DNA of 64,000 nt from Opeltia flavorubescens (lineage: Eukaryota; Ascomycota; Lecanoromycetes; Teloschistales; Teloschistaceae), in the NCBI GenBank assembly GCA_000442125.1, contig KE546981.1, positions 1-64,000 of the forward strand, given 5' to 3'. A model generated the notes under the pieces. It did no database searches. It saw only the letters and a list, made by a program, of their open reading frames with translations, and was not told the origin of the DNA. A program made the translations under genes and the position numbers. Every line of letters starts with the position of its first letter. Positions within the stretch are counted from its first letter, which is position 1. Below are positions 1 through 46,180 of the stretch, piece by piece.

Positions 1-93
1 CTAACCCTAACCCTAACCCTAACCCTAACCCTAACCCTAACCCTAACCCTAACCCTAACCCTAACCCTAACCCTAACCCTAACCCTAACCCTA
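1..93. repeat. Telomere repeat array (CTAACC)n
   Basis: Fifteen exact tandem copies of CTAACC followed by CTA. This is the C-rich strand of the TTAGGG telomere, so the chromosome end lies to the left of base 1 and the window reads inward. No variant repeats are seen. The array stops abruptly at a short TA run. Confidence 0.98.
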
Positions 94-100
94 TATATAT

Positions 101-400
101 ATAATAATAGATTATATTAGTCGAATATATAATAATAGATTATACTAATCGAATAAATAATAATAAACTATATTAAATAAGTATATAATAATAGATTATA
201 TTAGATAAGTATATAATAATAAACTATACTAGTTAAATAAATAATAATAAATTATATTAGATAAATATATAATAATAGAATATATTAGACGAGTATATAA
301 TAAAAAACTATATTAGCTAAATATATAATATAGATTATATTATTCGAGTATATATTAATAAACTATATTAATCGAGTAAATAATAATAAAATATAATAAT
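101..400. repeat. 28-bp subtelomeric minisatellite, about 10-11 copies
   Basis: Units begin at 101, 129, 157, 185, 213, 241, 269, 297, 325, 352 and 380. Each starts with ATAATAATA and continues with an RAYTATAYTA-like middle and a tail such as TCGAATAT or CGAGTAT. Spacing is exactly 28 bp except one 27-bp unit caused by a single-base deletion. Copies differ mainly by A/G and C/T changes, as expected for RIP acting on an older array. It directly abuts the telomere. Confidence 0.9.
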
Positions 401-3400
401 TAACTAATTATAAAAACGTTATATTTTATTAATTAAAGATTTTATATTATAATTATATTTATTTAATTAATTAATTATATAAAAAACTTTTTAAATAATC
501 GATATTTAATATTTATTTTTATAAAAAATCGGTAATTTTTTATAAAAATAAATATAATTTAATTATAAAACCTTTAAATTAAAATTTAATTTATAAAATT
601 AATAAAATAAATTAAATTATATTATCTATAAAATAATAATCGAAAAAATCTATAAAAAACCTTTTATTTTAATAGAAATTGTATATATAGATTTTAAATT
701 AAAATATTTATATTTTTTTTAAAAATCTATTTTTATTCGATTAATATATATTTTATTTATAAAATAAACGATTATTATTATAGTTTATTTTTATAATTTT
801 TCTAGAAATAATTATTTAAAACGGATAATCTATAAATATAATTAATTTTTATTCTAGAATTAATTCTAGTCCTTCTATAATAAAATAAAAAATAAGAAAA
901 AAATTAAAAAGATAATCTAATAATCGAAAAAATAAATAAAATCTCGGATTCTTTTATATAAAAAAAAATAATAGAATAATAAAAAATAAAATTATTTATT
1001 TTATTTATAATATTTTTTAATTTATTTAAATCGTTTATTTATTCCGGTTTTATTTTAAAATATAATTATAAAAATTATAACCTTTAATTTTACTACCGGA
1101 TTAAATTTAGCGTATATTAATAATTTTATATATTTTTAGTTAATATTATAAAAAATAGAATCGGTTATAAATTATTTAATTATTAATATTAAATTTCTTC
1201 TATATATAATCTATATCTAAATTTAAAATATTAATTAATATATTAATCTAAACTATATTATTATAAATAAATACTATAACTATTTAATAATATCTAGTAT
1301 TTTTATTAGATATTTTTTTAAAATAATTCTCGATATATTTAATATTTTTCTATTTATTTTAAAAAAATAGTTAATAATTTACTAAAATCTATTAATAATA
1401 TTTATTTTAATAATATTAAATTTATTTATTTAATTATTTTTAATTATTTTATTATAATAATTAAATAATCTATTAAATTATTTTTTTAACTATATATTTA
1501 TTTATTAATAAAATTTTTTATATTTTTTTCGTTTATATTAATACAAATATTTTTTATAAAAATACTATATCTAATATTAGAATAAAAGAAAAAATAATTA
1601 GATTTTTTTTTATATTTCTATTAATTTTCTAATTTTAATAAATATATTATCTTTATTAATTTTTAAAATCGAATAATAATAAAAAAATAAAATAATCTTT
1701 TCTATAAAAATTATAAGCTAAATTTTATTAATTACTAATCTATATATTTATTTTTTCTTTTATTTATTATAAATTATTATTTTTATTTTCTGTTATCTTT
1801 AAATCTTTTATAGCGAAATTTATAGAAATAAAATAATAAAAAAATAAAAAATAAAAAGGAGCTATAGTATAAAAAGCTAAATATAAATTATTTAAAGAAT
1901 TTTCGAAGTATAAATATTATTTAAATAATAAATTTATAATTTTTATAAAATTAATTTACGAATAATTAGATTAATATATAAAATTTAGTATATATATTAA
2001 ATAGCTTCTTTAAAGTAGTTTTTTAAAGTTATATTTAATTATTTTTTTCGAATATATTAATAGATATTAAATTTAATATATATATATATATTATTATCTA
2101 TAATATCTATTATTATATATTTATTTTTCTAGTACCTATTATATATAACCTACCGTTTAAAAATACAGCTCGACTTTATTAAAAGATTATATATAGTATT
2201 TTTATATTAAATTTATTATTAATAATTAATTTAAAATTTTTATAATATATTATTCTATTAATATATTTTATAGTATTATATTTAAAAATCGGTTATAAAA
2301 CTACTAATAAACTTTAAAATTATATAAAAAAAAGATTTTTTTATACTCGACTTTAAAAACCGAATCTTATTAGTAATTAAAATTAAAAAATTATTATTAA
2401 CTTTAATTATAAAAATTTAAATAGCGATAATAAGTTTTTAATTTATCGATCTAATTTTTTAAAATATATAAATTATAATAAAATATACTAATTAATATAT
2501 ATTAAATATATTAAATTATATATTAAAAATATATAAATTTATTTATTTTTAATTTAGGAAACTAAATTTTTTAAATAAATTTTGTTAAAAAAAATAGAAT
2601 AATATATTAAAATAAAAGCTCGAATTTAATTTTATTATTAATATTAAATATAATCTTATTTGTAATATTGAATTTAATTTTATTATTAATTTTTAATTTA
2701 GTTTTATTATTAATATCGATTATTTATTTTTTTAATTTTTTAAAATTAATAGTATCTAATTTTAATAAACTATCGAGAAGGTCTTTAATTAAAATATCGA
2801 TCTATTTTTTATTTAATCCGATAGAAAACTTTTTATAAATAATAACATAGTATATAATTATAATATTATAATTTTTATAGTATTTATTTTCGATTTTTTA
2901 ATCCTTTAAATTTAATACTAATAAATAATAAAATATCCTTTTATTTATAATTAGGTTTTTATAAATAGTAAATCTATTATATCTTTTAGTATATTTAATA
3001 TTTTAAAATTTAAATTTTTATTTTTTAAATAAAATTTTTTTAAAGTTATTAACTCGTTTAAATAAAAAAAATATTTATTTTTTTATTTTAAATTTAAACT
3101 CTTTTTAAAGATTTTTATTTAAAATTAAATATTTATTATTAATTTTTTTAATCGATTAGTTTTTATATATATAATAATTAACGCTCGTTTTTTTTTTTAA
3201 TTAATCGATTCGAATATTTAAAAAGTTCTATTATAAATATTAAAAAATATATTCGTTAAATATTTTATAAAATTTTTTTTTATTATTTATAAATTATTTT
3301 GAATTAATAACCTCGCTATTTATTATTATNATAAAAAAATAAAAAATTTAATAAATATAAAAAATCGTATTAAAAATTTTTAATAATAAAATAGATTAAA

Positions 3401-4059
3401 TTTTAAAAAAAAAAAATTATATATAATAAAAAGAAAAAAAAAAAAAAAAATAATAAAGAGAAAAGATAAAAAAAATAAATAAAAAGAAAAAAATTAAAAG
3501 TATATAATAATATTTAATATTTAATATATTTTAATACGACTTTAAATTTTTTTTTTAGTATTTTTTTTTTTTTAATTTTATTAAATTTAAATTTTATTTT
3601 AATTTATTATAAATAATTATTAATTATTATTAATAATTAAACGAAATATAATAAATATTAATACTATAGGCGTTATTTATTTATTTAGAAAAATATAAAT
3701 ATTTTTTTTATAAAATAAAATATTTTAAATTAAATAAATTTATAATTATTTTTTAATATTTTAATAATTTCTTTTAAATAATTTTAATAATAATTTTTTA
3801 TTAAAAATACTTTTAATACTTTTAATACTTCTAGTATTCTAAAAAATCTAGACAATATAAATATATTATATCTAATTATTAGATTTATAATATCGATATT
3901 ATAATTTTTAATTTATTTTATACTATTTTAAATTTAATTATACTTCTATTATTTATTATTAATTTTTTATTTAATTTTAACTAAAATAGCTATAAAAAAA
4001 TAATTCGGTATTTTTTATTAAAATCTATTAATAATAGTTTTATTAATTAATTATTTTAT

Positions 4060-4850
4060 AATTAAACCTTTTAAAGAAATTTTAAAAAATATATTTTATA
4101 ATATATAGCTTATTTTTAAATTTAGTCTATAAAAGCTAAAAAATATTTTAATTTTTTAACAATTAAAATTTAAATATAAATTAATTAAAAATAAATTAAA
4201 AATTTAAATAAATTAATAAATTTACAAAATTATACTATATTTCCGCTTTTTATTATAAAAAATTGAAAATTAGTATAATAATTTATAACTATTAATATTA
4301 ATATTTATATATATTATATATCTATTATAATTAATATAATAATTTTAAATTTTAATAATAAAATTTAATTTAATATAGATTATTTATTATTACTTTTATT
4401 TATATATTAATAGCTATAATTTCAACGGTTTTTTAAATCTATAAAAGCTATTTTTAGATTAAATATAAAGGTAATTATAATAAAAAAAATATATAATAAT
4501 AAAAAATAAAGATATAATTAAATTTAAAAAGATATAAAGCTAATTTTAAATTATAAAAGAACGCTTTAATATTCTTTATTAAAGTTCGCTAGCGATAATT
4601 TTACTAATCGATTACTTTATAACTAGATTTTTTAATAAAATTCTAAAAAATATATTTTAATACGTTTAGCTTATTTTTAAATTTTATCCGTAAAAGTTTA
4701 ATAATATTTTAAATTTTAAATAATAGAAATTTAGATAGAAAATCGATTGGGAATAAATCGAAAAACTAAATAAATTAATAGATTTAAGCTAATTAAATTA
4801 GTTTATTTCTAGAATTATACTATATTCCCGCTTCTTATTACTATTAAAAT
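4060..4850. repeat. Diverged direct duplication inside the RIP block
   Basis: A segment around 4,085-4,250 resembles one around 4,645-4,840. Shared anchors are TAGCTTATTTTTAAA at about 4106 and 4667, and ATTATACTATATT(T/C)CCGCTT at about 4229 and 4814. The inner copy keeps more C and G, so the copies look like two RIP-mutated versions of one sequence with small indels. The boundaries are approximate. Confidence 0.5.
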
Positions 4851-5049
4851 ATATTTACTCGAAGTTTATTTTATTTAAAAATTATATTATTAGTATTTGT
4901 TAATTATAAAATTCCGGTTCCAATACCCGTTAAATAAAAAGTATTTTATATAAAATAAACGCTAGTATTATAGTCGAAGTTTTCGGCTTTTATATATTAT
5001 ATAAATCGAGCTATATTCGTAAAGAGATTATTAAAATTAATCCCGTTAT

Positions 5050-6344
5050 TTAAAGTACTATCCAGATATATTATTAGCCTTCTTCGGCTTTTTCCCTATA
5101 GACTTTCCATTTGGACTGAAAGTCGATATAAGTAGGTTAAAGCTTTAAAATTAAGAGAAATAGTATCGATTATAATTTAAAGTATCGAGTATAAGCTGGG
5201 TAATATTTCGCAAATACAACCGCCAGCTTTATACTTCGGGATAACTTATATAAAACTACTTAAAGCTACCAGTAGAAATATTATAGCGGCGGCTAAACTA
5301 GCTATATTTCTCGCTTTTCCTAGAAAATATTAATAATAGTGTTTCGGATTGTTCGTGCCCAAATATTAGCTAATTGATAGTAGTAAATATTTCAGTTGTA
5401 TTAACCCAACCGATTGTATCAAATAGGTAAAAGGATAGGGAGGTATTCTAGGCGGTAATTAAAACGCTAAAGGCAACTCAAGCCGAGATCGAGGAAGTTA
5501 TTCTAGGCCCCCACCTACTACCTCGTATACCCTTGCACTGCCTATAGGCTACCTTTATTGCGCCCAATGCTCGCCTGGGTGCTTTTTCCTTTCTCTAAAT
5601 AAGGAAAGGACGGTAATGGTGACTTTACCGAATTCGAAGGTGAAACTGGCCCAACAGGTTCGAAATAGCGAGAAAAGTTCGACATTTATAATTGGCGCTT
5701 GCTGTATCGAAACGTATATCTTGATACCCGGGGACTCTGGAGGCATGCGTTAAATGTTTCGGGGCAAGAATCGGAGATGGTTTATATTACAGCTGATCGA
5801 AGCTTTTAACGTTGCTGATTGAACTCAGTAGCAAACACCTTCCTGCTGCAACCTCTGAAACCAATAGAACGGAAGCTCAACCTATCAGCCTCAGAAATGT
5901 CGACATAACAGTATTCTCGCAAATGATATTTCTATATATAGGCGCCGGTGTGGTTGTACGGCATTCACCAACATTATCTCGTCGAGGCTACTCTTATATC
6001 TGGTTATATTTCAATCCCACCTCCTTCAAGCATCGGCATGTCAGACATGCAGCCACAAAGCTTGGGCTAGCCTTATTGGTGCTAGGAATTCTAGGTTCTG
6101 AGGGCGGAGCTTAGCGAATTGGCAGGGGCTCATGAAGCCCCTACTATTTTAATGATCCCTGCCCGACATGAAATAAAATCAGATGTTAAAAGACTATATA
6201 GGACATAAGAAAGCAACTACTGTCGATGCTTTTTTCTGCATGCGAACATTAATCAAAAATTCCTCCCATCGAACAGGACTTTTCTTTCAGTCGAGTTTGA
6301 CCGAAGTCTTTGTGATAGCCGCAATACTCAATTTTAAATATACG
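5050..6344. other. Transition zone from AT-rich to normal DNA; no supported gene
   Basis: Base composition returns to normal here. Short open frames exist (for example 5,812-6,114 on plus), but none has recognisable domains or spliceable partners. The last few hundred bases should contain the promoter of the membrane-protein gene that follows. A longer first exon starting at 6183 is open in frame with that gene, so its start is uncertain. Confidence 0.6.
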
Positions 6345-8730
6345 ATGACATCGCTTTTTGAATCGTCAGACTATCCTCCCGATAATCATCAGTTCAAAGA
6401 GAAGAAGAAAACTATTATAGATCGTTTTTTTAAACGAGCCTTGTATTTTGGAATCAAGATTCATTGTCTTCCAATAGGTATTTCTATCTTGTTAGTATCT
6501 CTGAATCTCAAAGGCATATATATGGGCCCTGCCCTTCAGTACGGCTCGTGGACTACCACCCACTCTCTTGCGGCACTCCAAGTCACCGCAAAAATACAGG
6601 TACGACAGCTTCGAAGCCATTTCTACCCCAGTAAGCTAACAAGAATGAACAGGAGCTTCTGGCAGTAGCCAGTATGATGGCCATCGTCTGGGCGATCATA
6701 CAACATCAATTGCTCTATGGCGAAGGCTTACCATTAGGTCTAGTGGCCTCGATTTTCACCGTCTCTAAATTCGATTTCTGCACAAAAGCAACGTTGTATT
6801 GGCTTAGAAGTCCATCAAGTAAATGGCCCAAAATATTTGATCTTGTCTTGCATGTTTCTGCTTGCCTACCTCGCCACTCTGATAGGACCTGCCAGCGCTG
6901 TCCTGATGTTACCAAGACTTACCGTAAGTTATATCGCTAGAGAAAGTGTCAATCATTGACTTATTTGCCCTCCCCCTTAGGATCAACTTGTATACAATCC
7001 TCGATTCTGGCTTAGTGGGAGCTCGGAGAATTTGTTTCCTACAACACTGACCGCAGCTCATATTGGCAGCTCCCCCTCCTTGAACAGCTCTGATCCTGCT
7101 TCCTGTGCCAACCCTAATAGTGTCACAAACGATCATTGTACCTCCAGGGCTTATCAAAAGCTGTACACTCTGCTCGACAGCGCACCAAATACTTCGCACG
7201 TAGACTGGAGCTTTATTGTACGAGAAAGGACTTTCGCCAGGGTAGTGCAAGTACATGAATACATCGAAACGTGGGTTAGGATTCCTCATGCTGCCACCGG
7301 GTATGTTCAAAACATTCTGTGGTGGGACAGCTCTTGGTTTTTTGGATTTGGAACAGGTCTGCGCGTATCTACCGTCAAGTCAAACGCCGCAAATGTCAGG
7401 TCCGCATGTTTATGGCAAGAAGTGGCAATTAACACCGACAATATCCAATTTCCCCAACTGGAGTCATACAGAACTTATCGATACGATTTGAACACGTCCG
7501 TGGCAATCCCCTTAAACACTTGGAGTCAGGACAACGTTTCTTTCATCAATCCTAATCAAATCAGAACTATATGGATCGATGGCGCTCAAGATATTGACGC
7601 CGTCACGGCAGGTATTGTGATTCTTGCTCCAGTAAATGATTCTAATGGCGCCACTCGGTCCGCTCTAGGATGCTCTATCGATGCTCGGTGGGACCAAAGT
7701 CACCACATCCAGTCTGACGGTCCCTTGAACATAGCAATTTCGGCGGCCGTTATCGGTCCAAGATCTGATGAAAGCAGGGGATCAGGTTTCCTTCCGTCCA
7801 ACTCTAGTGATTGGAAGAGCATCAAAGCGAATATGGATTGGCTTGATGCATTGATGCCAATTGTTCCCTCTTTTACTTCGACGTCACAGTTCAGTAACTC
7901 TACCTCAACCATTGCCGACCTCTTGACGAGGACTGATCACATTCATATTCCACCTATCGATAGCGTCGAAGATGGCTATGGTGTCAAGTCCGGACATAAT
8001 GTGTATGAATTCTGGGAATTTCTCGTGGCGACCTACTTTGCAGAGGGTGTTGCGCGCGTGGGATATTCTGAACAGCTGAATTCCGCCGCTTTCTTCGTCG
8101 ATGAATCGCATCCAGGAACGAATGACTGTATCGAATACCTCCCCATTCCATTGCACAACGTGGACAAGTGCCCTGAGGACCAGCCCAAGGGAGCTAGTCT
8201 AACCAAGTTCCTCATCCAAGGCAAGCGTACAGGTAGTAAGTTTTCTCCTCGGCTCCAACATCGCGACTGACTGACCGATTTCTCTTTTCCAATCAAAAGT
8301 CTATGCATACCACGCCGCAGCAAAAACGGATTTTATCTCCGTCTTCGTTGTAATCACGTACCTTCTTATCGCCATTATCCATCTCCTCTATACACTCATC
8401 CGCAGGCGAAGTTCCCAAGCATGGCGGACCCTCGAGGACCTCCTTGCTCTCGCCTGGAGCTCCCGCCCTGACCCCAGGGTGCTCTCCAATACCTGTGCTG
8501 GCATGAAAAACCCACATATTAGAGCGAAAAAAGTAAAAATTCTTAGCAGGAGCGGCGCAGCGGATGAAGACGAGGAAAGCGGAGGAGAGAGGCAGAGGAA
8601 ATTCGACCGGGAAGAAGAGGAGGTGCAGATGGTCTTTGTGGATAGTATACCTCGTGAGAGCACAGTATTCACGAAGGTGGAGGCTGGGATAAAGTATGAG
8701 AAGACGGATTACATACGGTTAAGGGATTAA
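6345..8730 (+). CDS. Fungal multipass membrane protein with large extracellular loop; apparent frameshift
   Basis: Exons read as 6345-6599, 6653-6923, 6981-8235 and 8300-8730, joined by introns with GT/AG ends and CTAAC or CTGAC branch sites. The product belongs to a common uncharacterised fungal family. It has N-terminal membrane helices (LPIGISILLVSLNLKG, then ELLAVASMMAIVWAIIQHQLL and GLPLGLV), the signature LIGPASAVLMLPR before a long Asn-rich, probably glycosylated ectodomain, a C-terminal helix (FISVFVVITYLLIAIIHLL) and a tail containing NTCAG. In exon 2 the frame changes between about 6,800 and 6,845: the upstream helices are in one frame and the LIGPASAVLMLPR helix is in the next. An alternative intron at 6819-6885 restores frame but removes that helix, so a one-base indel (mutation or assembly error) is more likely. 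The start could be 6183. Function is unknown. Confidence 0.72.
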
Positions 8731-12664: not shown

Positions 12665-14147
12665 CTAACCCGCTATCAACCTCCTCGGCCTCAGATACCA
12701 GACCCCAATGCTCACCACACTGACCGACATACAAGCTCCCGTGAAAAGTACTATACCCTGAAACCTGTGAATCCCATAGCCATCCTTCCTCACCCTTCCA
12801 CTCAACAGAGCCGCACTGATTGGCCCAGTCAAAACATTTCCCAGACCCTGGCAAAATACAAAGATACCATATACCGCCAGTGCAGCCGTCGGCTCGTCAC
12901 TGATTGCAGTGCCCATACGCGCACGCAAAGAGTTGAAGCCATAGGCAAAGAATCCGAACAGCAACGCGAAAACAACCAGCGGGGCTATAGTATGCGCAAC
13001 ACCCCAAGCTGTGAATGTAGCCACTGCAGCGACCACGGTCGAGAGGATCAGCAAATAGTTCAGTCGAACTTTATCGGACAGGATACCAAACATCAGTTGG
13101 CCCATGACCTGAGCAAGACTCATCAGGGCAAGTAGAATGGCGCCTTGCCGTGCACTCAATCCAATCGAAGTAGCATACGAGGGTAGAAATATCGATGGAA
13201 AGAAGAACCCGAGACCCTGAGCGATGTTGGCGCTGCAATACACGACAAAAAGTGGCTCGCGAACGAAAGACCAATCTTGCCTCGTCATAGCACTTGATTG
13301 GGATATTGGCAGACGAGGTTTCAGAAATGGGATGAGTGGACCAGTAAGGATGAACATGGTTATTGTAATGGCCCGCAGGGTAATGCGATGCCCATATTTG
13401 AGTAAGAGGGCTTCGAGAATAAGGGGCATTGCTACACCAGCAGCACCAGCTGCGCAAGTTATGACACCGAATGCCATGCCTCGGCGTTGTATCCACCATT
13501 CGTTGACGAAGCTGATGATGGGCCAGTAGAAGATGAGGAAACCGGCTACGGTGGTAAATAATCAGCGAGCAGGCTTGAGAGATGAAATATTGGAAAGATT
13601 GCAAAGAGTGGGGAGTACCAACCTCCGTAAACGATACCTTGGGTCATGATGAGTCCAGCAACAGTATCAGCAAACGAGCTAGCAAGGAGTCCCACAAGAC
13701 ACAGCGGCCAGCCCACCCAGATCAGGTGAGTGCGGTACTTCTGGTAACGTCTGACAAAGACAGCCATGAACGGCGCACCCAGGTACGGCACTCCCGAGGC
13801 CATGGTACCCACGATCGTGATGTGGGGATTGTCTTCAAACTCTGGGAGCTTTGAATAGTAATCTTGAAACACACCGAACGAAACGGGAAAACCTGTACAC
13901 CAGTTCAATATGATGTGCGTGATTACTGATCGTTAGGGTATGTGACTATCATACCCCGAAGCAAAGCTTCGAATACGAAAGCAGCAAAGAGGACTTTCCA
14001 TGCTGCCAATCCACCGTCCGCAGGCTTAAGCTCCTGAAAGATGCGTTGATGATCGTCGTCATCTGCGACAGCGCTGGTCAAACCAGGATCGCCATCTCCG
14101 TTGACGCTGCGAAGCTCAATGGATCCCAAATGATCTGTGGCAGACAT
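12665..14147 (-). CDS. MFS transporter, monocarboxylate-transporter (MCT) type
   Basis: Spliced on the minus strand as 14147-13955, 13892-13623 and 13545-12665, giving 447 residues. The N-terminal cytosolic segment is acidic and ends in PADGGLAAWKVLFAAFVFEA, matching the DGGxGWxV start of MCT-type fungal permeases. The first intron falls inside the conserved GFPVSFGVFQDYY. After the second intron come FVNEWWIQRRGMAFG and the loop that follows it. About twelve hydrophobic segments are visible, including ILLALMSLAQVMGQLMFGIL followed by SDKVRL. The family moves carboxylates or exports small metabolites across the plasma membrane. The substrate cannot be read from sequence. It lies about 3 kb from the UstYa/precursor pair and could serve as an exporter, which is inference from position only. 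Confidence 0.9.
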
Positions 14148-17201: not shown

Positions 17202-18239
17202 CTACGGAGGATTCTCCAGCCCTATCACTCCCGGCGGCCGCTCCAATGGTACACCGCTGTACGGTGCGTTGTTTTTCTTGCCCCATTCCACAACACCATC
17301 GAAGTTCCGGCACTTGTGTACGACGTTGAAGTTCGGCCAAGGCATTCCCCGGAATGATACCCAGTTGTATGTTATGACACCTACGTCGGCGTCGCAGGTG
17401 AGCTTCTGTCGTAGGATTTCGATACAATGATCTATAAACCACGGTCAGTATGGGCGTAGATGGTGTACGAGCGGAAACGTACCAATGTGAACACGCACTG
17501 TCCCTGGAGGGTCTTTGAACGACGGACTTCGGCTCTCGTAGTAATCTTTGTCCAGGTATTCGCGGAGGAAGTTCTGGATAAGGGTGAGTCAAAGGATACA
17601 CCGGTTTGAGGAAGCTTGCAGATCTGAGGCGTGTGGTCTTACCAGACAGTGTAGTTGATGAAAGACTTCAAGCGTGGCAAAAAACTGTCCACCTTGGTAG
17701 TCACCAAGTCGAGTCGTATTCCCATCGAGCGTTTGATTCAATCGCAGGAAATCCGAATCCGAGATGCCGAATGCCCCAACTGTAAATTGTATTGAGTATC
17801 CCTTGGTATGTATAATCCATGTGGAAGCTCCTCACTCTTTTCTCTGTTCACCAACCTTTGCCAGGCAGCATCGAGAGTAGGGCTAGGTGGCCCACGAAAC
17901 TCAGATTGAAAGTCAAGTGTCCCGTTGAACTTGACTCGACGAAGAGGTAGGGTGGCTTCTAAGGCAGGTGCTAAGGAGGAAGTTAGCCTCGAATAATTGC
18001 TCAGGCGATTGATCCTTACACCAAGCTGATTGCGCTCTGATGCATTCTAGATCATCTTGTCCCCTTACTGTCATGATAAACGCAACAAGAAAGCCGGAAA
18101 GTATGGCAGAGAGGAGTGCTGTCAGTATTAAAAAGAATGTTGGTCGCCGGTTTTGCTTCTGGGTATTATCATCTTCGGACGAGAGCAAATGCTCCGACGA
18201 CAAGTATGGGCCATCTGCTGAGTCGTAGAGTTTACCCAT
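17202..18239 (-). CDS. UstYa-family (DUF3328) oxidase
   Basis: Five exons on the minus strand: 18239-18020, 17970-17836, 17779-17643, 17573-17483 and 17431-17202, giving 270 residues with four short introns of 49-69 bp. A cytosolic N terminus is followed by one membrane anchor at about residues 35-56. After it come SPALEATLP, the RVKFNGTL and FRGPPSPTLDAAWQRL region, then HQLHC at 159-163 and HIDHC at 193-197, and finally CDADVGVITYNW and VHKCRNFD. The two HxxHC motifs are the family hallmark and probably bind the metal. UstYa-type proteins install side-chain cross-links or other oxidations in fungal ribosomal peptides and some other metabolites. Transcription is divergent from the repeat peptide precursor at 19,284, which strongly suggests that peptide as substrate. 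No key residue appears lost. Confidence 0.95.
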
Positions 18240-19283
18240 TGCGTAAATGTCTGAAGGATGGATTTGACGATTCTTCTATTTGTTAGACGTTGAACCTTCG
18301 TCAAGCACGTCCAGAATTTGCAGATTGAATGATTTGAATTTCCTCCGACACCTCGTCACAAATCTTACCAGAAACCATTTGACAATCCCCGCGATACTCG
18401 GAAGGACCGCTGAGAAGGTATCCACTCGGATAGTCCCGCAATGCAAAACCGCTCTCCGCACAGACATCCGGTCTCATAACGTTGCAATGCAGCTTTCCAG
18501 GTTTCAATTCAATTGTTGATGAAACCGAGGTACCAAAGCAGTAATCAGACCCAGCGACGTCGTATTCCGTGTTTGATGGCATGTGTCCAAGGTTTCATCG
18601 CATCTATGCCAAGAAGGAAAAGACAGGTGGAAAAGCAATGGGTTCATGCATGATGCTTGGCATGGACCCAATGATCCAGATATTCGGGACTCAGACTTCC
18701 ACTCGCGGAGAACTTCATGTCTGCTGACATTGGATTAGACTCACTGGCTCAGACAGCTGAGTCTGTGGCTTTTTCTTCGGGCTTCGGCATCGAAATTAGG
18801 AACATTCACCCCATGTTGATCAAGGACCTTGCAGATCTAAATCCCACTGATTAATTTTCTCCGTATCATGTATCTCGGAGAAAACACTTGCGAGCGCGGA
18901 TGAACGCAGATCTAGTTGCAGCTCAGAATTGAGTTGTCAAACAATCACATTTCAAGCAACAGCTCTATGCGGAGCGTATGCAGCCCGGCAGTATGGAGTA
19001 GCGGTGAAGATGGAGGAACCATTATTTCTGCCTCGATGACTATAATAGCTGCATATGAAGGTCCAGAGATGGAGCAAGGCTCGATTCATGGCCGCTCATT
19101 CGCCCACATCAGCTTTTTCCGACAATATGGGTAGTCATGGACATCGTGTATATAATGGTCGGCTCGTCCTTTGAGATACCATTATAACAGTATCAGTGCG
19201 AAATCGGCATTCTTTCAGCAAATTCTTGTCGCTATAGTGTTTTAGTGATCTTGTGTATCAACATCACCAACCTAGCCGTCATC
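18240..19283. promoter_or_regulatory. Divergent intergenic region between UstYa gene and peptide precursor
   Basis: The two ATGs are 1,044 bp apart and face away from each other, so this region must contain both promoters and could coordinate them. A TATA-like box is visible on the precursor side. A 93-codon minus-strand frame (18301-18582) with several Cys has no signal peptide and no recognisable domain, so I do not call it a gene. It may be 5' leader of the UstYa transcript. Confidence 0.55.
19149..19156 (+). promoter_or_regulatory. TATA-like box of the peptide precursor gene
   Basis: TATATAAT lies 128 bp upstream of the precursor ATG. Position and sequence fit a fungal TATA element. Transcription start has not been shown. 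Confidence 0.4.
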
Positions 19284-19677
19284 ATGAAGCTTCCAATCAG
19301 TCTTCTCGCCGCACTCGCAATGGCCGGTATCTCTTTAGGGATGCCGATTAAGAATGGCAAGTACTTCTATACACCATTACTCAGAGTATCAACTAATATG
19401 TCTCCCAGAAGACGGCAGTGTCGCGGAAGGCGCTATCTTTGTCAACTACTACAAGCGTCCCAATACCAATATTGAGACCCGTGAGGCCAACGACGCTAAG
19501 CTTGCAGAAGGCGCTCACCATGTTACCTACTACAAACGTCCTAATGTGGACGTTGAGAAGCGTGAAGCCAAGGACGAAAAGCTTGCCGAAGGCGCCCACC
19601 ATGTCATTTACTACAAACGTCCCAACACAAATGTCGAGGAACGTACTGTCGGTGAGGCTGAAGCTGAGGCTACATGA
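19284..19677 (+). CDS. Repeat-type Kex2-processed peptide precursor (candidate dikaritin RiPP)
   Basis: Two exons, 19284-19356 and 19409-19677, give 113 residues. The 52-bp intron uses a GC donor (G|GCAAGT), a CTAAT branch site and a CCCAG acceptor. The nearby GT donor would break the frame, so GC-AG is required. Residues 1-19 are a signal peptide (KLPISLLAALAMAGISLG). Then come three 27-residue repeats starting at residues 30, 57 and 84, each holding AEGA, two variable residues, V, one variable residue and an invariant YYKR. Variable positions read IF/N, HH/T and HH/I. Kex2-type KR sites follow each YY (40-41, 67-68, 94-95), and a second KR occurs at 75-76. The equivalent site is TR in repeat 1 and ER in repeat 3. 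The protein ends in an EAEAEA tail like dipeptidyl-aminopeptidase substrates. The likely cores are the aromatic stretches ending in YY. It sits next to a UstYa gene. Confidence 0.9.
19423..19677 (+). repeat. 81-bp tandem coding repeat, three units
   Basis: Units begin at 19423, 19504 and 19585, exactly 81 bp apart, each starting GC(G/A/C)GAAGGC. Many differences between units are synonymous, while the TAC TAC AA(G/A) CGT segment stays fixed in meaning. The third unit diverges after GAG GAA CGT. These are the repeats of the peptide precursor. Confidence 0.93.
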
Positions 19678-20203: not shown

Positions 20204-21457
20204 TTATAACTTTCCAAGCAGTCTCAAAACCAGCTCGTACACCCCAAAGGTGATCGCTGCAGAGGGAACAGCGCGAAGCATATGGGGCGTCAACCCGCCA
20301 TACAGACTAGCAAAACCCCCCTCTTGCCAAGTCAAACGAGAACATTGGAGCAAGCCCGTGTATCGTCTTGTCCCTTCTTCCGTCGGTGCCTGGCGAAGTC
20401 TGGTTCTGATTACCTGGTCACAGATCACATGTTAGTGATGTGGGTAACTGGTCGAATGAAGGTCAGAATACTACCTCGTGTGGGTATGCGACCAGTGTAC
20501 TGAGACACTTGGATGTAGCCGCCGCTGCTGTCACATCTATCGACCTTGCACTACAATCTCCATGAGCCGTACATTGCTGAGGGTGATGATGCATTGCTCC
20601 AAGCAGCATCTTTGTTTGTTCGTAAAGGACCAAATGGAGAACTGTCTCGCCCACACCGAGAACACTGGCACTCAGCCCGCGATACAGTCCCTTGATACCC
20701 TCGTTCCGGAGTAGTTGAAAGGCGCAATCCAGGCTGTTTTTGTACTGTCGAACCGTGTCTTTCTCCACACGCGATTTGTCGAGCTGCAGGCGTGTTTTGA
20801 CCACCCAGATCGGGTTGATCGCCAGTATCGTCGATATGCCGGCGCTGGAGGCCGAGACTGCATGCACCTTCAGTGAGTCTGGATCGAGTCCCCGTCCATG
20901 GAAAAGAGCTTTGCAATTTCCATATGTGAGAAATTTGACAGTATTGGCGGGGACAACGCTGACGAGGCTCGGGCCGAGCCCTGAAAAATAAGCTCGCCAG
21001 CCTTCGACGATGCGAATAGACCAGAGTGTACGGAGAGTATCGCGAATGTGATGAAGAGCTGGTATAGATTTAGTGTTGCTAGAAGACATGGAGCCATATG
21101 TGCGGTAAAAGTCGGCTTGTAGTCGAGTTCTTAGGACGTCCAAGGGAAGTGTTAAGCATGTGGCTACCACTCCACCACACCTGTAGAAGAATAAGGAATC
21201 AACGTTGAGATCCTCGATCGAGTTGCTATAATCTGATACCAGGATACTCCTTGATAGATCAAGAGATTGAGGATCTTTGACATATAAAGGGAGCGGTAGA
21301 GGGGAAGCAGTGGGAATTCGACTCACGCTCCTGCAATAGGGTGGGCCCAAGGCTGTCCCATAAAGTTTCTGGACTCCGGGATGTCCTGCGGAGGGAGCAC
21401 TGTAGTACCTTGTGAGATCATGGATTGCGATGATGGCTCAGGATCGCGTAAAGGCAT
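20204..21457 (-). CDS. Mitochondrial carrier, Rim2-like (pyrimidine nucleotide type)
   Basis: The minus-strand exons are 21457-21327, 21180-20475 and 20413-20204 (348 residues). All three carrier signature motifs are present: PLDVLRTRLQ, NPIWVVKTRLQLDK and PHEVIRTRLRQAP, the last spanning the second splice junction. Other typical elements are WAHPIAGACGGVVATCLTL before the first motif, GLYRGLSASVLGVGETVLHLVLYEQTK in the middle repeat, and LYGGLTPHMLRAVPSAAITFG at the end. The NPIWxVKTRLQ and PHEVxRTRLRQ forms match the Rim2/SLC25A33-36 branch, which exchanges pyrimidine nucleotides across the inner mitochondrial membrane. The first intron is 146 bp, longer than its neighbours. Given the subtelomeric position it may be an extra paralogue of a housekeeping copy. 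It is not obviously part of the peptide pathway. Confidence 0.92.
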
Positions 21458-22569
21458 GATGGCTGGGGACTTGCGAGGAAAGAATATCGCGACTGCAACT
21501 TAAGGGATTGTAACATTGTTATCGTAGGGTAGCCTAAAAGCACGTGTTCATAAAGCACATCATTAAATTAGACTATTGCAAGTTTATATCATGTTCGCTT
21601 GTCATGACAAATATACTGAAGAAAGCGCAGATTCATCAAAAACTTCGCTAAACAAACGTCTCCTTACCTTGGCAGGGGATGCTATCATTCAACAGAAATC
21701 ATGACGTTAATTACTTGGCTCTTCAAACTTACAGAACAATCAGCAAGGTCGTTAGCCAGGCTTTCGCAAAATTCCTTCTCTGCCGTTAAGTCCACAAGTC
21801 GTTTGCGAAGCAGATGGGGGGCTCACTTGAGGGAATTCTTGTTCCTCTACAACTATTGCACTCTACCCCTTGAGAGCCCGAGCATTTACCGCATCTCTGA
21901 GGAGAAGATGAAGGAGGAGGAGTTGCCACGGTATTAGTCTACAGGAAGAATGAAGCAGAAGAACCGGCGCTGGAATTGAGTAGCAGGCATCGCGTTTCCT
22001 TCTACCTGGCGAAGGACTTTTCTCGTCAAAGTTAAGCCATTACAAACGAGAGTCTATCAGTTGTGCGTACCAAGCAAGATGTATCGAGTCACGATGTGAG
22101 TCTCTTATCAAAGTGCGATACTTTCCTATATCGCAATAATAAATTATAATGTCTTTAATTTTGTGTGAAACCAGCTTGAAATTAAATACACACCAAGCAT
22201 TCTTCGAGTGATCTTCAAGGTTGTCCCCATGCGGAAATAATATTGAGATGTCGACTCTCATATAGTCGTTACATAGACTTGAAAATTCGTTTTGTGGTCA
22301 GTCTCCAGACGTCAGAAGCATCTTGTTTTCCACTTAGTCCGCTCGTCCGCTGCCGAGGTTCACGACAGCCCTGACAGCCACTCCGCATTTCCACCTGCTT
22401 AGCCACCAATGGGAATACTTCCTTCCATCACTTTCCGGCCAGCTATCAGTAATGACGCAGTCACGATTACTAGCCTCTAATGGATGGCCAGCGGTCCCAC
22501 TTGCCATGGCTGTTCATCTCTCGTTTAACTGCATTTCTTGCACGAAGTCGGGCAAGCAGGCCCAACACC
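21458..22569. other. Divergent intergenic region; no supported gene
   Basis: The stretch should hold promoters for the carrier (minus) and the FMN enzyme (plus). Short frames here lack recognisable content. Confidence 0.5.
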
Positions 22570-23826
22570 ATGGCACCCTCTGAACCCCACGATCTCAATT
22601 GCCTGACAATACACGAACTCGAAGCTCTCGCCGCTGTGCGCATGACCAAGCAGACTCGGGATTACTACAATGAAGGCGCCGATTCAGGATCCACCCTTCT
22701 CGAGAACTCCCAGGCTTATGCAAAGTATCGCATTCGACCGAGAGTTCTACGCGACATCTCCAACATCGATACTTCGGTTTCGCTATTTGGTGCGAGGAGC
22801 TCGATTCCACTGGGTGTTGCGCCAACAGCTATGCAGTGCCTCGCTCATCCAGACGGCGAGGTGGCAACCGCACGAGCATCTAGGAAGGCAGGTCTCGTAA
22901 TGGGCCTATCGTCATTCGCGACAAGCACACTTGAGGATGTAGCGGATGCTAGTCGAGACAATGAAGTTGATAATCCGCGAATATTACAGCTTTATCTGTT
23001 TGAGGAGCGGGAACACTCCAGGAAGTTGATCCAGCGAGCCAAGAAAGCTGGGTACCAAGCTGTCTTCTTGACAGTAGACACTCCTATGCTGGGTCGGCGG
23101 AACATGGAGATCCGGAATCAGTTCAAACTGCCGAAACCGTGGAAGATTGCTAACTTCACCGAGGATGAGGATTCGTCGGCTGCGAAGACCGTGATGGAGG
23201 GGAAGCCATCGTCAAGCACGAAGGAGGGCAGGGAGAAGAGTAGTGCAGGTGCAGATGCGAATATGCCCCGACAATCGAACGAGGAGANCCAGAGGAAGCC
23301 ACCAACAGGACCAATTTCATTCCATTCCCATGCTCCTAATCCGACGTTGTGCTGGGAACGCGACATTGGCTGGTTGAAGGAGCAGTGCTCGCCTGAGATG
23401 CAAGTCTGGGTGAAAGGCATTGCAACCGCAGAAGATGCGCTGTTAGCAGTCCACCACAAGGTCGACGGCATCGTAGTATCGAACCATGGAGGTCGACAAC
23501 TCAACGGTGCACTGGCTACGCTCGATGCTCTGCCAGAGGTTGTCGAGGTTGCCAAAGGCAAGATCCCTGTACACGTTGATGGGGGTATACGGCATGGGAC
23601 GGACATCTTCAAAGCTCTTGCCCTTGGTGCAGATTTTGTGTGGGTTGGACGACCGGTCTTGTGGGGACTTGCGTACAAAGGACAGGAAGGTGTGGAGCTG
23701 TGCTTGCGGCTGCTGAAGGATGAATTTACTCTTTGCATGGGACTTGCTGGGGTGACCAAGGTGAGTGACATCTCGAAAGATTATCTCGTCAAGGTGGATA
23801 AAGGTGGCTTCATCAGTCGACTATAA
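22570..23826 (+). CDS. FMN-dependent alpha-hydroxy acid dehydrogenase/oxidase
   Basis: A single exon of 418 residues. I chose the ATG at 22570 (MAPSEPHD); the frame is open upstream to 22480 but that adds a poor extension. The TIM-barrel landmarks are in order: DYYNEGADSG (Tyr 32-33), SIPLGVAPTAMQCLAHPDGE, GLSSFATSTLEDVA, LTVDTPMLGRRNMEIRNQF, WVKGIATAEDA (Lys 282), SNHGGRQLNG (catalytic His 306, Arg 309) and VHVDGGIRHGTDIFKALALGA. The family oxidises L-lactate, glycolate or similar 2-hydroxy acids using FMN. There is no cytochrome b5 domain, so it is not flavocytochrome b2, and no mitochondrial presequence is obvious. One undetermined base (23288) sits in a variable Ser/Glu-rich loop. It could be metabolic or a tailoring enzyme of a neighbouring cluster. 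Confidence 0.93.
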   Translation: MAPSEPHDLNCLTIHELEALAAVRMTKQTRDYYNEGADSGSTLLENSQAYAKYRIRPRVLRDISNIDTSVSLFGARSSIPLGVAPTAMQCLAHPDGEVATARASRKAGLVMGLSSFATSTLEDVADASRDNEVDNPRILQLYLFEEREHSRKLIQRAKKAGYQAVFLTVDTPMLGRRNMEIRNQFKLPKPWKIANFTEDEDSSAAKTVMEGKPSSSTKEGREKSSAGADANMPRQSNEEXQRKPPTGPISFHSHAPNPTLCWERDIGWLKEQCSPEMQVWVKGIATAEDALLAVHHKVDGIVVSNHGGRQLNGALATLDALPEVVEVAKGKIPVHVDGGIRHGTDIFKALALGADFVWVGRPVLWGLAYKGQEGVELCLRLLKDEFTLCMGLAGVTKVSDISKDYLVKVDKGGFISRL

Positions 23827-33629: not shown

Positions 33630-35669
33630 TTAGGTCACATTGAAAACCAGGCTCGGTACATTCAGAGGCTCCATTAGCCCTTCACCGCCTAACGTCATTG
33701 TCTTTCCCAGAACATTCCATGCCATCGTAGTATCCATTTGATGCAGAACCCACACTCGTCTGCAATTCGTGTACTCATCATGCCACAACAGTGTCGGAAT
33801 GACTGCCGTGAAGTCCTCGTTTTCGGGGCATAAAATCATCATCTTATCCGAGGGATGAGCACTAAGATTGATCCATCCAGGAGTCCAGTCAGGGTTGGAC
33901 GCCGTGAGGAAATCCAATGGAAGCGATTCCACGGTATCGGCAACAAGCATATACGCATCTCGATTTCGGTCAGTAAGCTGCTTGAAGTCACAGCCACTCA
34001 TGTCATGTTGAAAGAAAATCCCAAGGGCATCGATCAGATCTGGAGTCTCAAAGCTCTTGGTGGCCAAGCCTTTGTCAAGGAATGATAGGCCGAGTTCCAG
34101 CGCACAAGCAAAGATTCTGATCTTCATCGCCCGGTTATCATTCAGTGTTGCACCTAGCTCATACATCGGATCTACTTTCGACAATTTGATGCACTCATCA
34201 ATGAACCAGGCTGCTCTGTCGAGGTATAGATCGCTTGGTCGCGAGACTGTCTGATTAGTGCATAGCACCAGACAATCCAACTCAATCTGATAGAGATCAA
34301 AGTTGGGAACGCTGTCTAATCGACGGTACGCCCATCTTCGGCCTATCGTTCCATTGAAGTCGCCACCTCGAGGGCGTCGCAACCAGGAAGTCATCGAGTG
34401 GTCACCTGAGTTGACGTACCGCTCACCTGAGCAGCAGAGTACCGTTGGGTCCCCTGCACATAGAGCAACAAGAGAAAGGATTAATCCACATTCTTCGGCA
34501 GTCCTTGGACCGCCACTGTATCTAAGATCGCAGCCAACAACATTGAAGGTGATAGCAAGTTTGTCTTTTTCAATAGACGCTCCATATCTCGAGATACCAC
34601 GGTAGCCTTCCACAAGGCTTAGGATATCCGAAGAAGCAGGCTGTTTGCGGTCCCCGTCATAGTCAGAGTTTCCAGCGCTGAGATCCAGATGATTCATGTA
34701 TACCCGCAGGAGCCCCCTTCTTCTTAGGTTTTGGTACTCTGCTACTAAGAAGGCATGTGATTTGTCCGATGATCCAACCCGGTCGTAGGTACTACAAAGT
34801 ACTACAAGACCCTTGAGAAATTGCAATGACATTCGCAGAAAGATAGCTCTGGTCCTGTCCTCAGCGTCGACCTGGATGAGAAAGACATGGTTCTGATTGA
34901 CCAGTAGTTCATGATTACACCACGCCCGTGTGAACCATCGAGCGGAGAAGATTTTGAGGGTCAATGACGTTGCTTCCCTAGCCTGTTGCAATGAGAACTC
35001 GATCTTGCTACTTGCATCATTCTGCATTAAGAGAGTCAAGCATGCCAATTCTGAACGCGTGAAAATGATGTCTTCCAATACGATGACAACAAGGCGCGCG
35101 CGGTCGTAGATGACGTTCATCATTCCGATTGTTTGGGATTTCTCTTCCGCTTGGCTTTGATTAATGCAGCACTGATCAATCCATACGCCCTCATATGTAG
35201 ATGTACGTTCAGCAAGTAGGGCTTGTACCATACTAGGTCCTATAGGCCAGCAAAAGCCATCCGTAGCTGCCTTTACGGAATTATCATTTGGCACCTTCCA
35301 CTCATCGCTGTGCCAACAATAGCTCAGTGTAATATACGAGTCCATCCTCTCTGGCATATTAGGCGAGCCGGTGGTGATCACTCGAAATGGAATCTCTTCC
35401 AAAGAATCTCGACCCAACTTCAAGTCGACTGCATACTCTGGGGCAATCGATTGTAGTCGATGGAGTACATCAGGTGCACAGAAGCCGTTAGATCCACATG
35501 ATATTGGTACTGCACTGAGACCCTTCCTTGTCCAATCTCTCCCCAGATCCTCAAGACTGCCTGTGGAGCATATACTTGTCTCTGCTGTAGAAGAACTATC
35601 GAAGCTCATCGTTTGGATTTTGCAGTGGTCGAGGCCTACAGGACCAGCCCATAATATTCTCATGTCCAT
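33630..35669 (-). CDS. HET-domain (heterokaryon incompatibility) protein
   Basis: A single exon of 679 residues. The HET core runs from about residue 110 to 260, with YITLSYCWHSDEW at 112-124, GVWIDQCCINQ at 161-171, KSQTIGMMNVIYDRARLVVIVLED up to residue 200, and RWFTRAWCNHELL further on. The Cys and Trp of the WIDQxCINQ block are intact. The C-terminal two thirds carry no NACHT, WD40 or ankyrin repeats, so this is a HET-only type with a long unclassified tail ending in the WVLHQMDTTMAWNVLG region. HET proteins trigger cell death after fusion of incompatible hyphae, and related genes serve in innate-type recognition. They are often subtelomeric and variable. Confidence 0.95.
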   Translation of the reverse strand: MDMRILWAGPVGLDHCKIQTMSFDSSSTAETSICSTGSLEDLGRDWTRKGLSAVPISCGSNGFCAPDVLHRLQSIAPEYAVDLKLGRDSLEEIPFRVITTGSPNMPERMDSYITLSYCWHSDEWKVPNDNSVKAATDGFCWPIGPSMVQALLAERTSTYEGVWIDQCCINQSQAEEKSQTIGMMNVIYDRARLVVIVLEDIIFTRSELACLTLLMQNDASSKIEFSLQQAREATSLTLKIFSARWFTRAWCNHELLVNQNHVFLIQVDAEDRTRAIFLRMSLQFLKGLVVLCSTYDRVGSSDKSHAFLVAEYQNLRRRGLLRVYMNHLDLSAGNSDYDGDRKQPASSDILSLVEGYRGISRYGASIEKDKLAITFNVVGCDLRYSGGPRTAEECGLILSLVALCAGDPTVLCCSGERYVNSGDHSMTSWLRRPRGGDFNGTIGRRWAYRRLDSVPNFDLYQIELDCLVLCTNQTVSRPSDLYLDRAAWFIDECIKLSKVDPMYELGATLNDNRAMKIRIFACALELGLSFLDKGLATKSFETPDLIDALGIFFQHDMSGCDFKQLTDRNRDAYMLVADTVESLPLDFLTASNPDWTPGWINLSAHPSDKMMILCPENEDFTAVIPTLLWHDEYTNCRRVWVLHQMDTTMAWNVLGKTMTLGGEGLMEPLNVPSLVFNVT

Positions 35670-36136
35670 AGCATTTGCTACTCTTGAGACAAGCTGTTCG
35701 TCAATATTTGATCTATCATGGGAGACTTCTAGTCAGTGATCTCTGTGGGGTCTCTAACCAAGTTACATGGGACATGTGTTTGGCTCACTTGGGAATACCC
35801 TGAGACAGTACCTGGGCAGACTAGGCAGCTGTATGCAGCCTACACACGAGCATCTCACATTTTGTGTATCAATCCGCCATCTATGCATTGACTCCGCAAG
35901 GTGGAATCGACATCTTGAGGTGACATTGGACAAACCCGGAGCCAACATGATAGAGTATTGAAGCTTGCTTTACACCTTTCCACATGTCTTTCGTGCTCTT
36001 ATCTCCTATCAGTCAAAATCAGCACTAGAGCCCATTGAGTCTAGATCAACAGCCGCGGAAATTGGCCCAACCCCCCACCAAAAAATCATCTCAAGACTCA
36101 CCATCCATTTATTCTCCCACACCAACTCAATATCCC
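35670..36136. other. Divergent intergenic region
   Basis: The region lies between the HET gene (minus) and the conserved unknown (plus). The frame of the plus gene is open back to 36035 but lacks an ATG before 36137. Confidence 0.5.
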
Positions 36137-45131: not shown

Positions 45132-45379
45132 CAGTAGTGGTATGCAAGCATTTGTTTTGACTGCTTTAGATGCGATGCCTTGACAAATGTCGTCCATCAT
45201 AAGTATTCCGATGCCTCCATAAAACTTGAGACCATGATATCCGAATTTGACGCTCATTGTCATCGAGTGTCAGCCTCAGGCTGCACCCTGTGTTAACGAG
45301 TTCTCCTAAACCCCGCAGTTTCCGAATCCGCTTGCTTCCCCCACCTTAACCTCTTTGACACCTTTCAAACTTGAACAGC

Positions 45380-46180
45380 ATGTCGGAGCATCATGATCCA
45401 GCCAAGCAAGCCCCACAAATCCAACAACCAAGGGAGTCCAATCCCCAAGAATTCACCCCATTCCCATTTCTCAGCCTTCCGTTCGAAATACGACTTGAAA
45501 TCTACCGCCTATGCTTGACCAACAAATCTCCACTATTCATCATATCCAGCATTCCCAAGCCCGACAATAGTAGACCAGTACAATGGTCAGGGAGAAGCGA
45601 GGACGATGGCATCCAAAACGTAAACCTCCTCCGCATCAACAAGAATATCTATCGAGAAGCCCTACCCGTTCTCTACAGCCTCAATACCTTCCACTTCAAC
45701 CGCTGGGTTCAATTTTGCGATTTCACTGATCATATAAACCGCTCAAGCATCCCCCTAATCCGCAAGGTAGAGATCGCATTTCCGCTGATCGGCCGCGATT
45801 GCGACGCCGAGGTACCTACTTCTTACTTCCAAGAGAGGGCGTTGCAGAAGAGTCTTGCGATCCTCAAGTCCTTTGACGGTCTACAGAGTCTGAGACTCAT
45901 TTTAAGACAGGATCTCATGACCTGCGATATCGAGCTCCTGCGGACGATTAACAGGGCGGGATGTAATAAAGGATGTCGCATAGAGCTAAGGGTAGAGAAA
46001 GCAAGGATATATATCATTGACAGTAGTAGGCCTCGTCTGATATACTTTGCTGTCGCAAGCGAAATGCAGAGTTGGGGATGGAAGATATCGGGGGATTGGG
46101 AGCTGGTTGATAAGCACCATCGCTTTTGGGATGAACGGCAGTGGGTAGAATGGTTGCGCCAGGGTGAGAAGGCGTCCTGA
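45380..46180 (+). CDS. F-box-like/2EXR-type protein, tandem copy 1
   Basis: A single exon of 266 residues from the ATG at 45380. The N-terminal motif FPFLSLPFEIRLEIYRLCLT resembles the F-box-like start of fungal 2EXR-type proteins. It is followed by LLRINKNIYREALPVLYSLN, a strongly conserved element of that group, then a segment of alternating strands and helices (IRKVEIAFPLI, LQSLRLILRQDLMTCDIELL) and a C terminus with EMQSWGWKISGDWELVD and WVEWLRQGE. First of three paralogues on the same strand. Function is unknown; the fold suggests protein interaction. Confidence 0.85.
   Translation: MSEHHDPAKQAPQIQQPRESNPQEFTPFPFLSLPFEIRLEIYRLCLTNKSPLFIISSIPKPDNSRPVQWSGRSEDDGIQNVNLLRINKNIYREALPVLYSLNTFHFNRWVQFCDFTDHINRSSIPLIRKVEIAFPLIGRDCDAEVPTSYFQERALQKSLAILKSFDGLQSLRLILRQDLMTCDIELLRTINRAGCNKGCRIELRVEKARIYIIDSSRPRLIYFAVASEMQSWGWKISGDWELVDKHHRFWDERQWVEWLRQGEKAS

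Follow-up and report, generated by a model that had tools for sequence, protein, structure and literature searches.

Does the pair of divergent genes at positions 17,202 to 19,677 of contig KE546981.1 (C17) of Opeltia flavorubescens, a lichen fungus of the Teloschistales, encode a peptide pathway, and if so, what peptide would it make? The window, which here means the whole stretch of DNA analyzed, is the first 64 kb of this contig in a genome of 34.4 Mb and 23 contigs, and of the pair, one gene encodes a UstYa-family (DUF3328) oxidase and the other a small protein built of repeats. We favor, at a probability of roughly 0.7, a minimal, subtelomeric, asperipin-like UstYa/repeat-precursor locus for a ribosomally synthesized and post-translationally modified peptide (RiPP). 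The pathway is probably one for an undescribed ring-shaped peptide, for which expression, the joint function of the two genes, the cleavage sites, the cross-link and the product are what we infer.

Both genes stand where a first-pass annotation, made from the sequence alone, had placed them, head-to-head with start codons at 18239 for the oxidase and 19284 for the precursor. The oxidase gene has five exons, from 18239 to 17202 on the minus strand, and encodes 270 amino acids:

17202..17431, minus strand, UstYa exon 5 and stop codon (gene model)
17483..17573, minus strand, UstYa exon 4; HIDHC starts at 17489 and runs into exon 5 (gene model, motif)
17643..17779, minus strand, UstYa exon 3; HQLHC at 17646-17660 (gene model, motif)
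17836..17970, minus strand, UstYa exon 2 (gene model)
18020..18239, minus strand, UstYa exon 1 with a transmembrane segment (gene model, hydropathy)
18240..19283, no strand, intergenic region of 1,044 bp separating the divergent start codons

The earlier assignment of this protein to the UstYa family, with both HxxHC motifs, is borne out. The profile PF11807 (DUF3328) matches residues 30-248 with an E-value of 2.1e-52 and 178.6 bits, against a curated cut-off of 25, and HQLHC and HIDHC lie at residues 159 and 193, respectively. Of 45 homologues aligned, 41 retain both motifs; the other four have one motif, and two of these are short proteins. The closest relatives among the matches listed come from cf. 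Caloplaca (75% identity), Teloschistes (70%) and Xanthoria (78%, partial). In the AlphaFold model of the Caloplaca homologue (P0002, 75% identical; mean pLDDT 75, pTM 0.59), a helix at 42-62, likely transmembrane and in line with the hydropathy of exon 1, is followed by helices at 161-176 and 192-212 that hold both motifs. In the homologue CctR, whose activity depends on copper and oxygen, each monomer binds two copper atoms through its two HxxHC motifs; this dicopper site is needed for activity, which alanine substitutions in the HxxHC motif abolish (PMC12435403). Work by others, as cited there, found the cyclase AprY dependent on copper and oxygen as well (PMC12435403). As a lead, the nearly invariant W110 of the window protein may be the counterpart of W108 of CctR, whose loss is harmful. 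Foldseek returned no match at an E-value of 0.001 or better; the sole solved-structure matches, to hemagglutinin (E 0.0086 or worse), were judged to be chance.

The second gene of the pair spans 19284-19677 and is spliced:

19284..19356, plus strand, precursor exon 1, signal-peptide-like N-terminus; the relative from Letrouitia (below) aligns from MAGISLGMP (gene models, hydropathy)
19357..19408, plus strand, preferred GC-AG intron, predicted, giving 113 amino acids (gene model)
19361..19418, plus strand, alternative GT-AG intron, predicted, giving 111 amino acids (gene model)
19409..19677, plus strand, precursor exon 2, containing the three 27-residue repeats (gene model)
19423..19503, plus strand, repeat 1, AEGAIFVNYYKRPNTNIETREANDAKL (repeat analysis)
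19504..19584, plus strand, repeat 2, AEGAHHVTYYKRPNVDVEKREAKDEKL (repeat analysis)
19585..19665, plus strand, repeat 3, AEGAHHVIYYKRPNTNVEERTVGEAEA (repeat analysis)
19435..19452, plus strand, putative core 1, IFVNYY (boundaries inferred)
19516..19533, plus strand, putative core 2, HHVTYY, the same in all three Letrouitia repeats (boundaries inferred)
19597..19614, plus strand, putative core 3, HHVIYY (boundaries inferred)

The protein was described before as having a signal peptide, and its N-terminus is indeed signal-like, as judged by hydropathy only (maximum over 12 residues 2.36). It was also said to contain three exact 27-residue repeats. This holds for the spacing, which is exactly 81 bp or 27 residues with all three units in register; the sequences are not exact copies, with pairwise identities of 18/27, 16/27 and 16/27 residues, and the DNA of repeats 2 and 3 is 74% and 65% identical to that of repeat 1. 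The repetition in the precursor exceeds chance: 13 repeated 4-mers share one spacing, whereas shuffling the repeat part 20,000 times never gave more than 4. When repeat 2 is compared with repeat 3, the core and KRPN (codons 1-14) carry 5 synonymous differences and 1 non-synonymous, and codons 15-27 carry 1 and 10 (Fisher p 0.005 against codons 1-14). The two pairs with repeat 1 go in the same direction without significance (synonymous/non-synonymous 4/3 versus 1/6, p 0.27, and 4/3 versus 1/8, p 0.11). Together with the Letrouitia relative, this codon pattern speaks for the reading frame and for selection acting on the core. No second copy of the precursor was found in the fungus's own genome beyond the window gene.

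A protein search and a profile search of 5.8 billion sequences at E-values up to 10 gave a single relative of the precursor among 57 and 1,625 candidates, in a metagenome-assembled genome of Letrouitia leprolyta, a member of the Teloschistales from a suborder other than that of Teloschistes. Contigs of prokaryote genomes and of viruses were scanned as well, with no confirmed relative. The Letrouitia precursor has three repeats, AEGSHHVTYYGH, AEGAHHVTYYGH and AEGAHHVTYYGH, and keeps AEG(A/S)HHVTYY. Over the six repeats of the two fungi, A, E, G, V, Y and Y are invariant, i.e., AEG and V-x-Y-Y, and His-His is present in five, the exception being window repeat 1 with Ile-Phe. The residues right after the Tyr pair differ: Lys-Arg in the window repeats is replaced by Gly-His in all three Letrouitia repeats.

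Is a repeat precursor beside a UstYa gene a matter of chance? Grouping of 19 profile matches gives 14 UstYa loci in the genome, a lower bound that includes one locus on C10 only just above the cut-off (25.1 bits). Regions of 9.9 kb around the 13 other loci were scanned for repeat proteins with dibasic sites, and three of them hold a repeat precursor, making 4 of at least 14 loci with the window included:

Contig C3, locus L012: precursor ATG at 6345 and repeats at 6470-6919, plus strand; UstYa match at 4423-5020, minus strand; head-to-head
Contig C2, locus L018: precursor at 3537-4001, plus strand; UstYa matches near 4347-4571, minus strand, and 6396-6638, plus strand
Contig C22, locus L020: precursor at 5792-6034, minus strand; UstYa match at about 4870-5304, plus strand

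The C3 precursor has a signal-like exon upstream of six 24-residue repeats like FEADGMLAVARDAESSYATKKR, which end in SSYAT-KKR except for the final one, before the stop, with KE. The C2 precursor has about eleven 12-residue repeats, LPEPGVGF-KR, and is adjoined by two UstYa genes; its repeat contains Phe but lacks Tyr, and any UstYa cross-link formed there would accordingly differ. The C22 precursor is small, with Trp-ending units (EPGRPW-KR, EPGSPW-KR) that resemble the Phe-ending units of C2. The cores of all three differ from those of the window. In all four pairs the precursor lies within about 1.4 kb of the matched UstYa stretch, and neither the rest of the window nor five control regions (50 kb in all, a small control) hold a repeat precursor with a signal-like start, as judged by scan and inspection.

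These pairs make it very improbable that the window genes are chance neighbors at a UstYa-rich chromosome end, even though such an end is where they lie. The window starts with telomere repeats, which place the locus 17-20 kb from the chromosome end:

1..90, no strand, telomere tract of about 90 bases

The terminal 100 kb of the contigs hold ten of the 14 UstYa loci, against 1.9 expected from their 13% share of the genome (binomial p about 1e-6, in a test that counts each of the 46 contig ends as a chromosome end and the loci as independent). A sample of 20 contig ends shows telomere repeats at 18 termini; the other two are a start that reads N and an end without repeats.

Several observations weigh against a RiPP pair in the window. 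The strict automatic repeat filter, which also speaks for chance neighbors, was positive in three of 13 UstYa regions (L012, L018 and L020) and in one of five controls (L044). By itself it fails to tell the two kinds of region apart, and the separation therefore rests on inspection. By eye, we dropped the two overlapping low-complexity AT-rich open reading frames (ORFs) matched in L044 and the lax-filter positives in L011, L013, L019, L021, other ORFs of L018, L044 and the window. In L020, the plus-strand ORF positive in the strict filter was dropped, and the minus-strand ORF, positive in the lax filter only, was kept for its signal-like start. Pfam matches of P0001 and the C3 precursor (Peptidase_C25, CENP_C_N and others) were set aside as chance or repeat-driven. 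No clear repeat precursor lies in the 9.9-kb regions around the closest UstYa paralogues, which are one match on C14 and two loci on C5. At C14:12798-13031, 12.8 kb from the telomere, the last UstYa exon alone matches, with 73% identity to the window gene and 78-81% to the Caloplaca and Teloschistes proteins, and this is possibly a gene fragment. Among 120 listed of 153 UstYa matches, none is named Letrouitia (some are without a name), and none comes from the 49,707-base Letrouitia contig that holds the precursor. Caloplaca, Teloschistes and Xanthoria have close UstYa relatives, and the precursor was not found among their predicted proteins; small spliced genes often escape gene finders. Letrouitia and these three genera bear on a refuting condition of the first-pass annotation, under which relatives would retain just one of the two genes. 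The precursor gene model itself depends on a predicted intron, in its preferred form with a GC donor. Tyrosinase matches lie on C6 and C3 only, none on C17, and no tyrosinase, methyltransferase or peptidase was seen among the window ORFs scanned, which do not include every small ORF. To these come Pro directly after KR at all three YYKR sites of the window and a second basic position that is dibasic in only one of the three repeats.

The last two points concern where the precursor would be cut, presumably by Kex2, for which a Kex2-type P-domain match is present in the genome. The first-pass annotation took YYKR and the dibasic sites to be invariant and the core to end in Tyr-Tyr. YYKR is present in all three repeats, as it said; the second basic position reads TR, KR and ER. 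In four comparison precursors, Pro follows none of 20 dibasic sites (five in C3, exon 2 only, ten in C2, three in C22 and two in Letrouitia); one further KR in C3 exon 1, outside this count, stands before Leu. According to a review, Pro at P1′ impedes Kex2 (PMC12141369). Taken with Gly-His at this place in Letrouitia, Pro after YYKR makes a core ending at Tyr-Tyr doubtful, and the proposal is weakened accordingly; neither this Pro nor the need for an intron figured in the first-pass annotation. The window precursor has four dibasic sites, of which one is without Pro next:

19558..19563, plus strand, KR followed by EA (VEKR/EA), second basic position of repeat 2, at the place of the Letrouitia RR/KR sites

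In a hand-set repeat alignment, the second basic position (TR, KR, ER) coincides with RR and KR in Letrouitia; MAFFT agrees for the KR of repeat 2 and shifts the remaining sites.

Two cleavage maps follow from these sites. In the first, Kex2 would cut at YYKR/P and release a core ending in Tyr-Tyr. In the second, the cut would fall at the second basic position (VEKR/EA and its TR/ER degenerates), so that KRPN would be kept in the excised peptide. A real RiPP pair with such a longer product, retaining KRPN in the window fungus and GH in Letrouitia, with Kex2 acting at the second position only and no cores ending in Tyr-Tyr, stands at a little under even odds. This is a form of the RiPP explanation and not an addition to it, and it alters the masses to be expected. 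The contrast of Pro at 3/3 versus 0/20 sites, the effect of Pro on Kex2 (PMC12141369) and the replacement of KR in Letrouitia argue for it; the second position, with TR and ER in two of three repeats, argues against it, and KRPN, invariant in the window, would also fit selection for a cut after YYKR. From the sequences of two species, on which the comparison rests, we lean slightly toward the second map as the ancestral one, with the second position being older and the KR beside YY having arisen in the window lineage.

The KR-EA site also brings in a different explanation, since KR followed by EA is an α-factor-like Kex2/Ste13 arrangement (PMC9769878). The precursor could yield secreted peptides that stay linear and unmodified, serving as signals, in pheromone-like or cytolytic roles or in the wall, and the UstYa protein could have another substrate. 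Indeed, most of 7,878 fungal repeat precursors are without a UstYa gene nearby, 22% having one (PMC7329392), and the Letrouitia precursor is without UstYa among the matches listed. We nevertheless consider this unlikely. Recognized pheromone precursors almost never neighbor UstYa (PMC7329392), the window genes are adjacent and divergent, three more such pairs exist in the genome, and the core has Tyr. Repeats contain Tyr more often with a DUF3328 gene nearby than without one (65.6% versus 38.2%), and the distance between UstYa gene and precursor averages 3.09 genes with a maximum at the next position (PMC7329392). Against the yeast-type α-factor Pfam profiles, the precursor gave no Pfam match at E-values up to 1.

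The RiPP pathway that we favor would start with the signal peptide taking the precursor into the secretory pathway, where Kex2 would cleave it at basic sites and the adjoining oxidase, membrane-anchored, luminal and presumably dicopper, would oxidatively cross-link the Tyr-containing core. The tyrosine linkages of ustiloxin and phomopsin join the β-carbon of isoleucine. With V-x-Y-Y invariant, analogy with these Tyr-Ile linkages (PMC7329392) suggests an ether between Tyr and the Val β-carbon.

Among known systems, asperipin-2a of Aspergillus flavus (aprA, aprY, aprT, aprR) is the closest in layout, with a repeat precursor and a single UstYa-type oxidase (PMC6514808, PMC7329392). Its four genes include no tyrosinase (PMC6514808), and no tyrosinase match lies at the window locus either. 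Its core FYYTGY is rich in Tyr and contains Tyr-Tyr, as do the window cores (PMC6514808, PMC7329392). Unlike in asperipin-2a, the window cores HHVTYY, HHVIYY and IFVNYY are of unrelated sequence, and a reductase of the aprR type was not recognized among the ORFs scanned. With one precursor, one UstYa oxidase and no tyrosinase at the locus, the window pathway would thus work like that of asperipin. Ustiloxin B and phomopsin share the Kex2-type repeat precursor and DUF3328 oxidases (PMC6514808, PMC7329392). Their pathways require a tyrosinase and include a methyltransferase and several DUF3328 genes, whereas the window has one DUF3328 gene and no tyrosinase match, and their repeats are of 13-14 residues compared with 27. 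The epichloecyclins (gigA) of the mutualist Epichloe likewise combine a repeat precursor with a symbiotic fungus, and form their ring on Tyr (PMC6514808); their producer is a grass endophyte, unlike the window fungus.

Within the Lecanoromycetes, the Parmeliaceae RiPP clans R1 and R2 have UstYa-type signature genes with the double HxxHC motif (PMC12048977). This 2025 lichen survey found no repeated precursor in R1 and R2, the two UstYa clans it covered, whereas the window has one adjoining UstYa; some lichen RiPP clusters there have signal-peptide proteins with Kex2 sites and no repeats (PMC12048977). Also unlike R1 and R2, the window contig is without a tyrosinase match, and a methyltransferase or acetyltransferase was not recognized among the ORFs scanned. 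To our knowledge, none of the genera listed for types G-3 and G-8 of the KEX2-processed repeat proteins (KEPs) belongs to the Teloschistales. Both types have His-His in the repeat, as has the window precursor, and a DUF3328 gene nearby in 57/64 and 45/49 members (PMC7329392), a likeness in the HH motif. HHVTYY occurred in no paper of the literature search, and no paper was recognized as describing the precursor, as judged from titles and abstract openings, with subscription papers, supplements and preprints outside the scope. Umbilicaria, too, is a lichen genus. It is listed by Umemura (2020) for a precursor type with DUF3328 near in 1/50 members (PMC7329392).

As a KEP, the window precursor has the signal-like N-terminus, on hydropathy, and the repeated units; these units may be separated by Kex2 sites, with four dibasic candidates of which three are followed by Pro. 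Dikaritins in the broad sense, where DUF3328 defines the class, need a repeat precursor with a DUF3328 gene nearby, and both are present; the cross-linked product that also belongs to them is a prediction here. In the original five-gene sense a tyrosinase, multiple DUF3328 genes, a methyltransferase and a transporter or peptidase belong to the class; the contig has no tyrosinase match, and the window has a single DUF3328 gene and an MFS match, with no methyltransferase or peptidase among the ORFs scanned (both senses as cited in PMC12048977). The locus thus appears to fit the broad dikaritin definition as far as genes can show, and the label dikaritin-type of the first-pass annotation can be kept in that sense and not in the original one. 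Its pairing of repeat precursor and UstYa is now well supported, also by the three further pairs, with the core as the part that has suffered.

A bolder extension, which we regard as a long shot, is that the His-His/Tyr-Tyr core was kept across families of the Teloschistales while the cleavage map shifted, that UstYa makes a novel cross-link, from Tyr to the Val β-carbon or from Tyr to His, that His-His could bind copper, and that the peptide serves the lichen symbiosis or the defense of the thallus. We know of no such Tyr-Val β-carbon or Tyr-His cross-link in fungal RiPPs. On this bolder reading, it would be the first RiPP of a lichen fungus with a known repeat precursor, as far as the literature was searched. 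The window locus and the three others offer candidate precursors with definite repeat sequences, which makes lichen RiPPs testable by mass spectrometry. Furthermore, Pro after KR is a warning that core boundaries taken from KR alone can mislead.

Next to the pair lie a mitochondrial carrier gene (20204-21437) and an FMN-dependent dehydrogenase gene (22474-23826), with no evidence of membership in the pathway; NCBIfam gave no match for the carrier or the UstYa protein. A match to MFS at 12665-13561 has no tie to the pathway. A HET-domain gene (33630-35732; PF06985, E 5.1e-21) lies in the same subtelomeric region, and three similar-looking genes stand in tandem at 45359-46180, 47099-47980 and 48589-49410, of which the first and third, the only two scanned, match DUF7730. 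Toward the chromosome end, within positions 1-6000, the DNA after the telomere tract has a GC content of 9-26% and then shifts abruptly to about 43-51%, the AT-rich part possibly reflecting repeat-induced point mutation of old elements.

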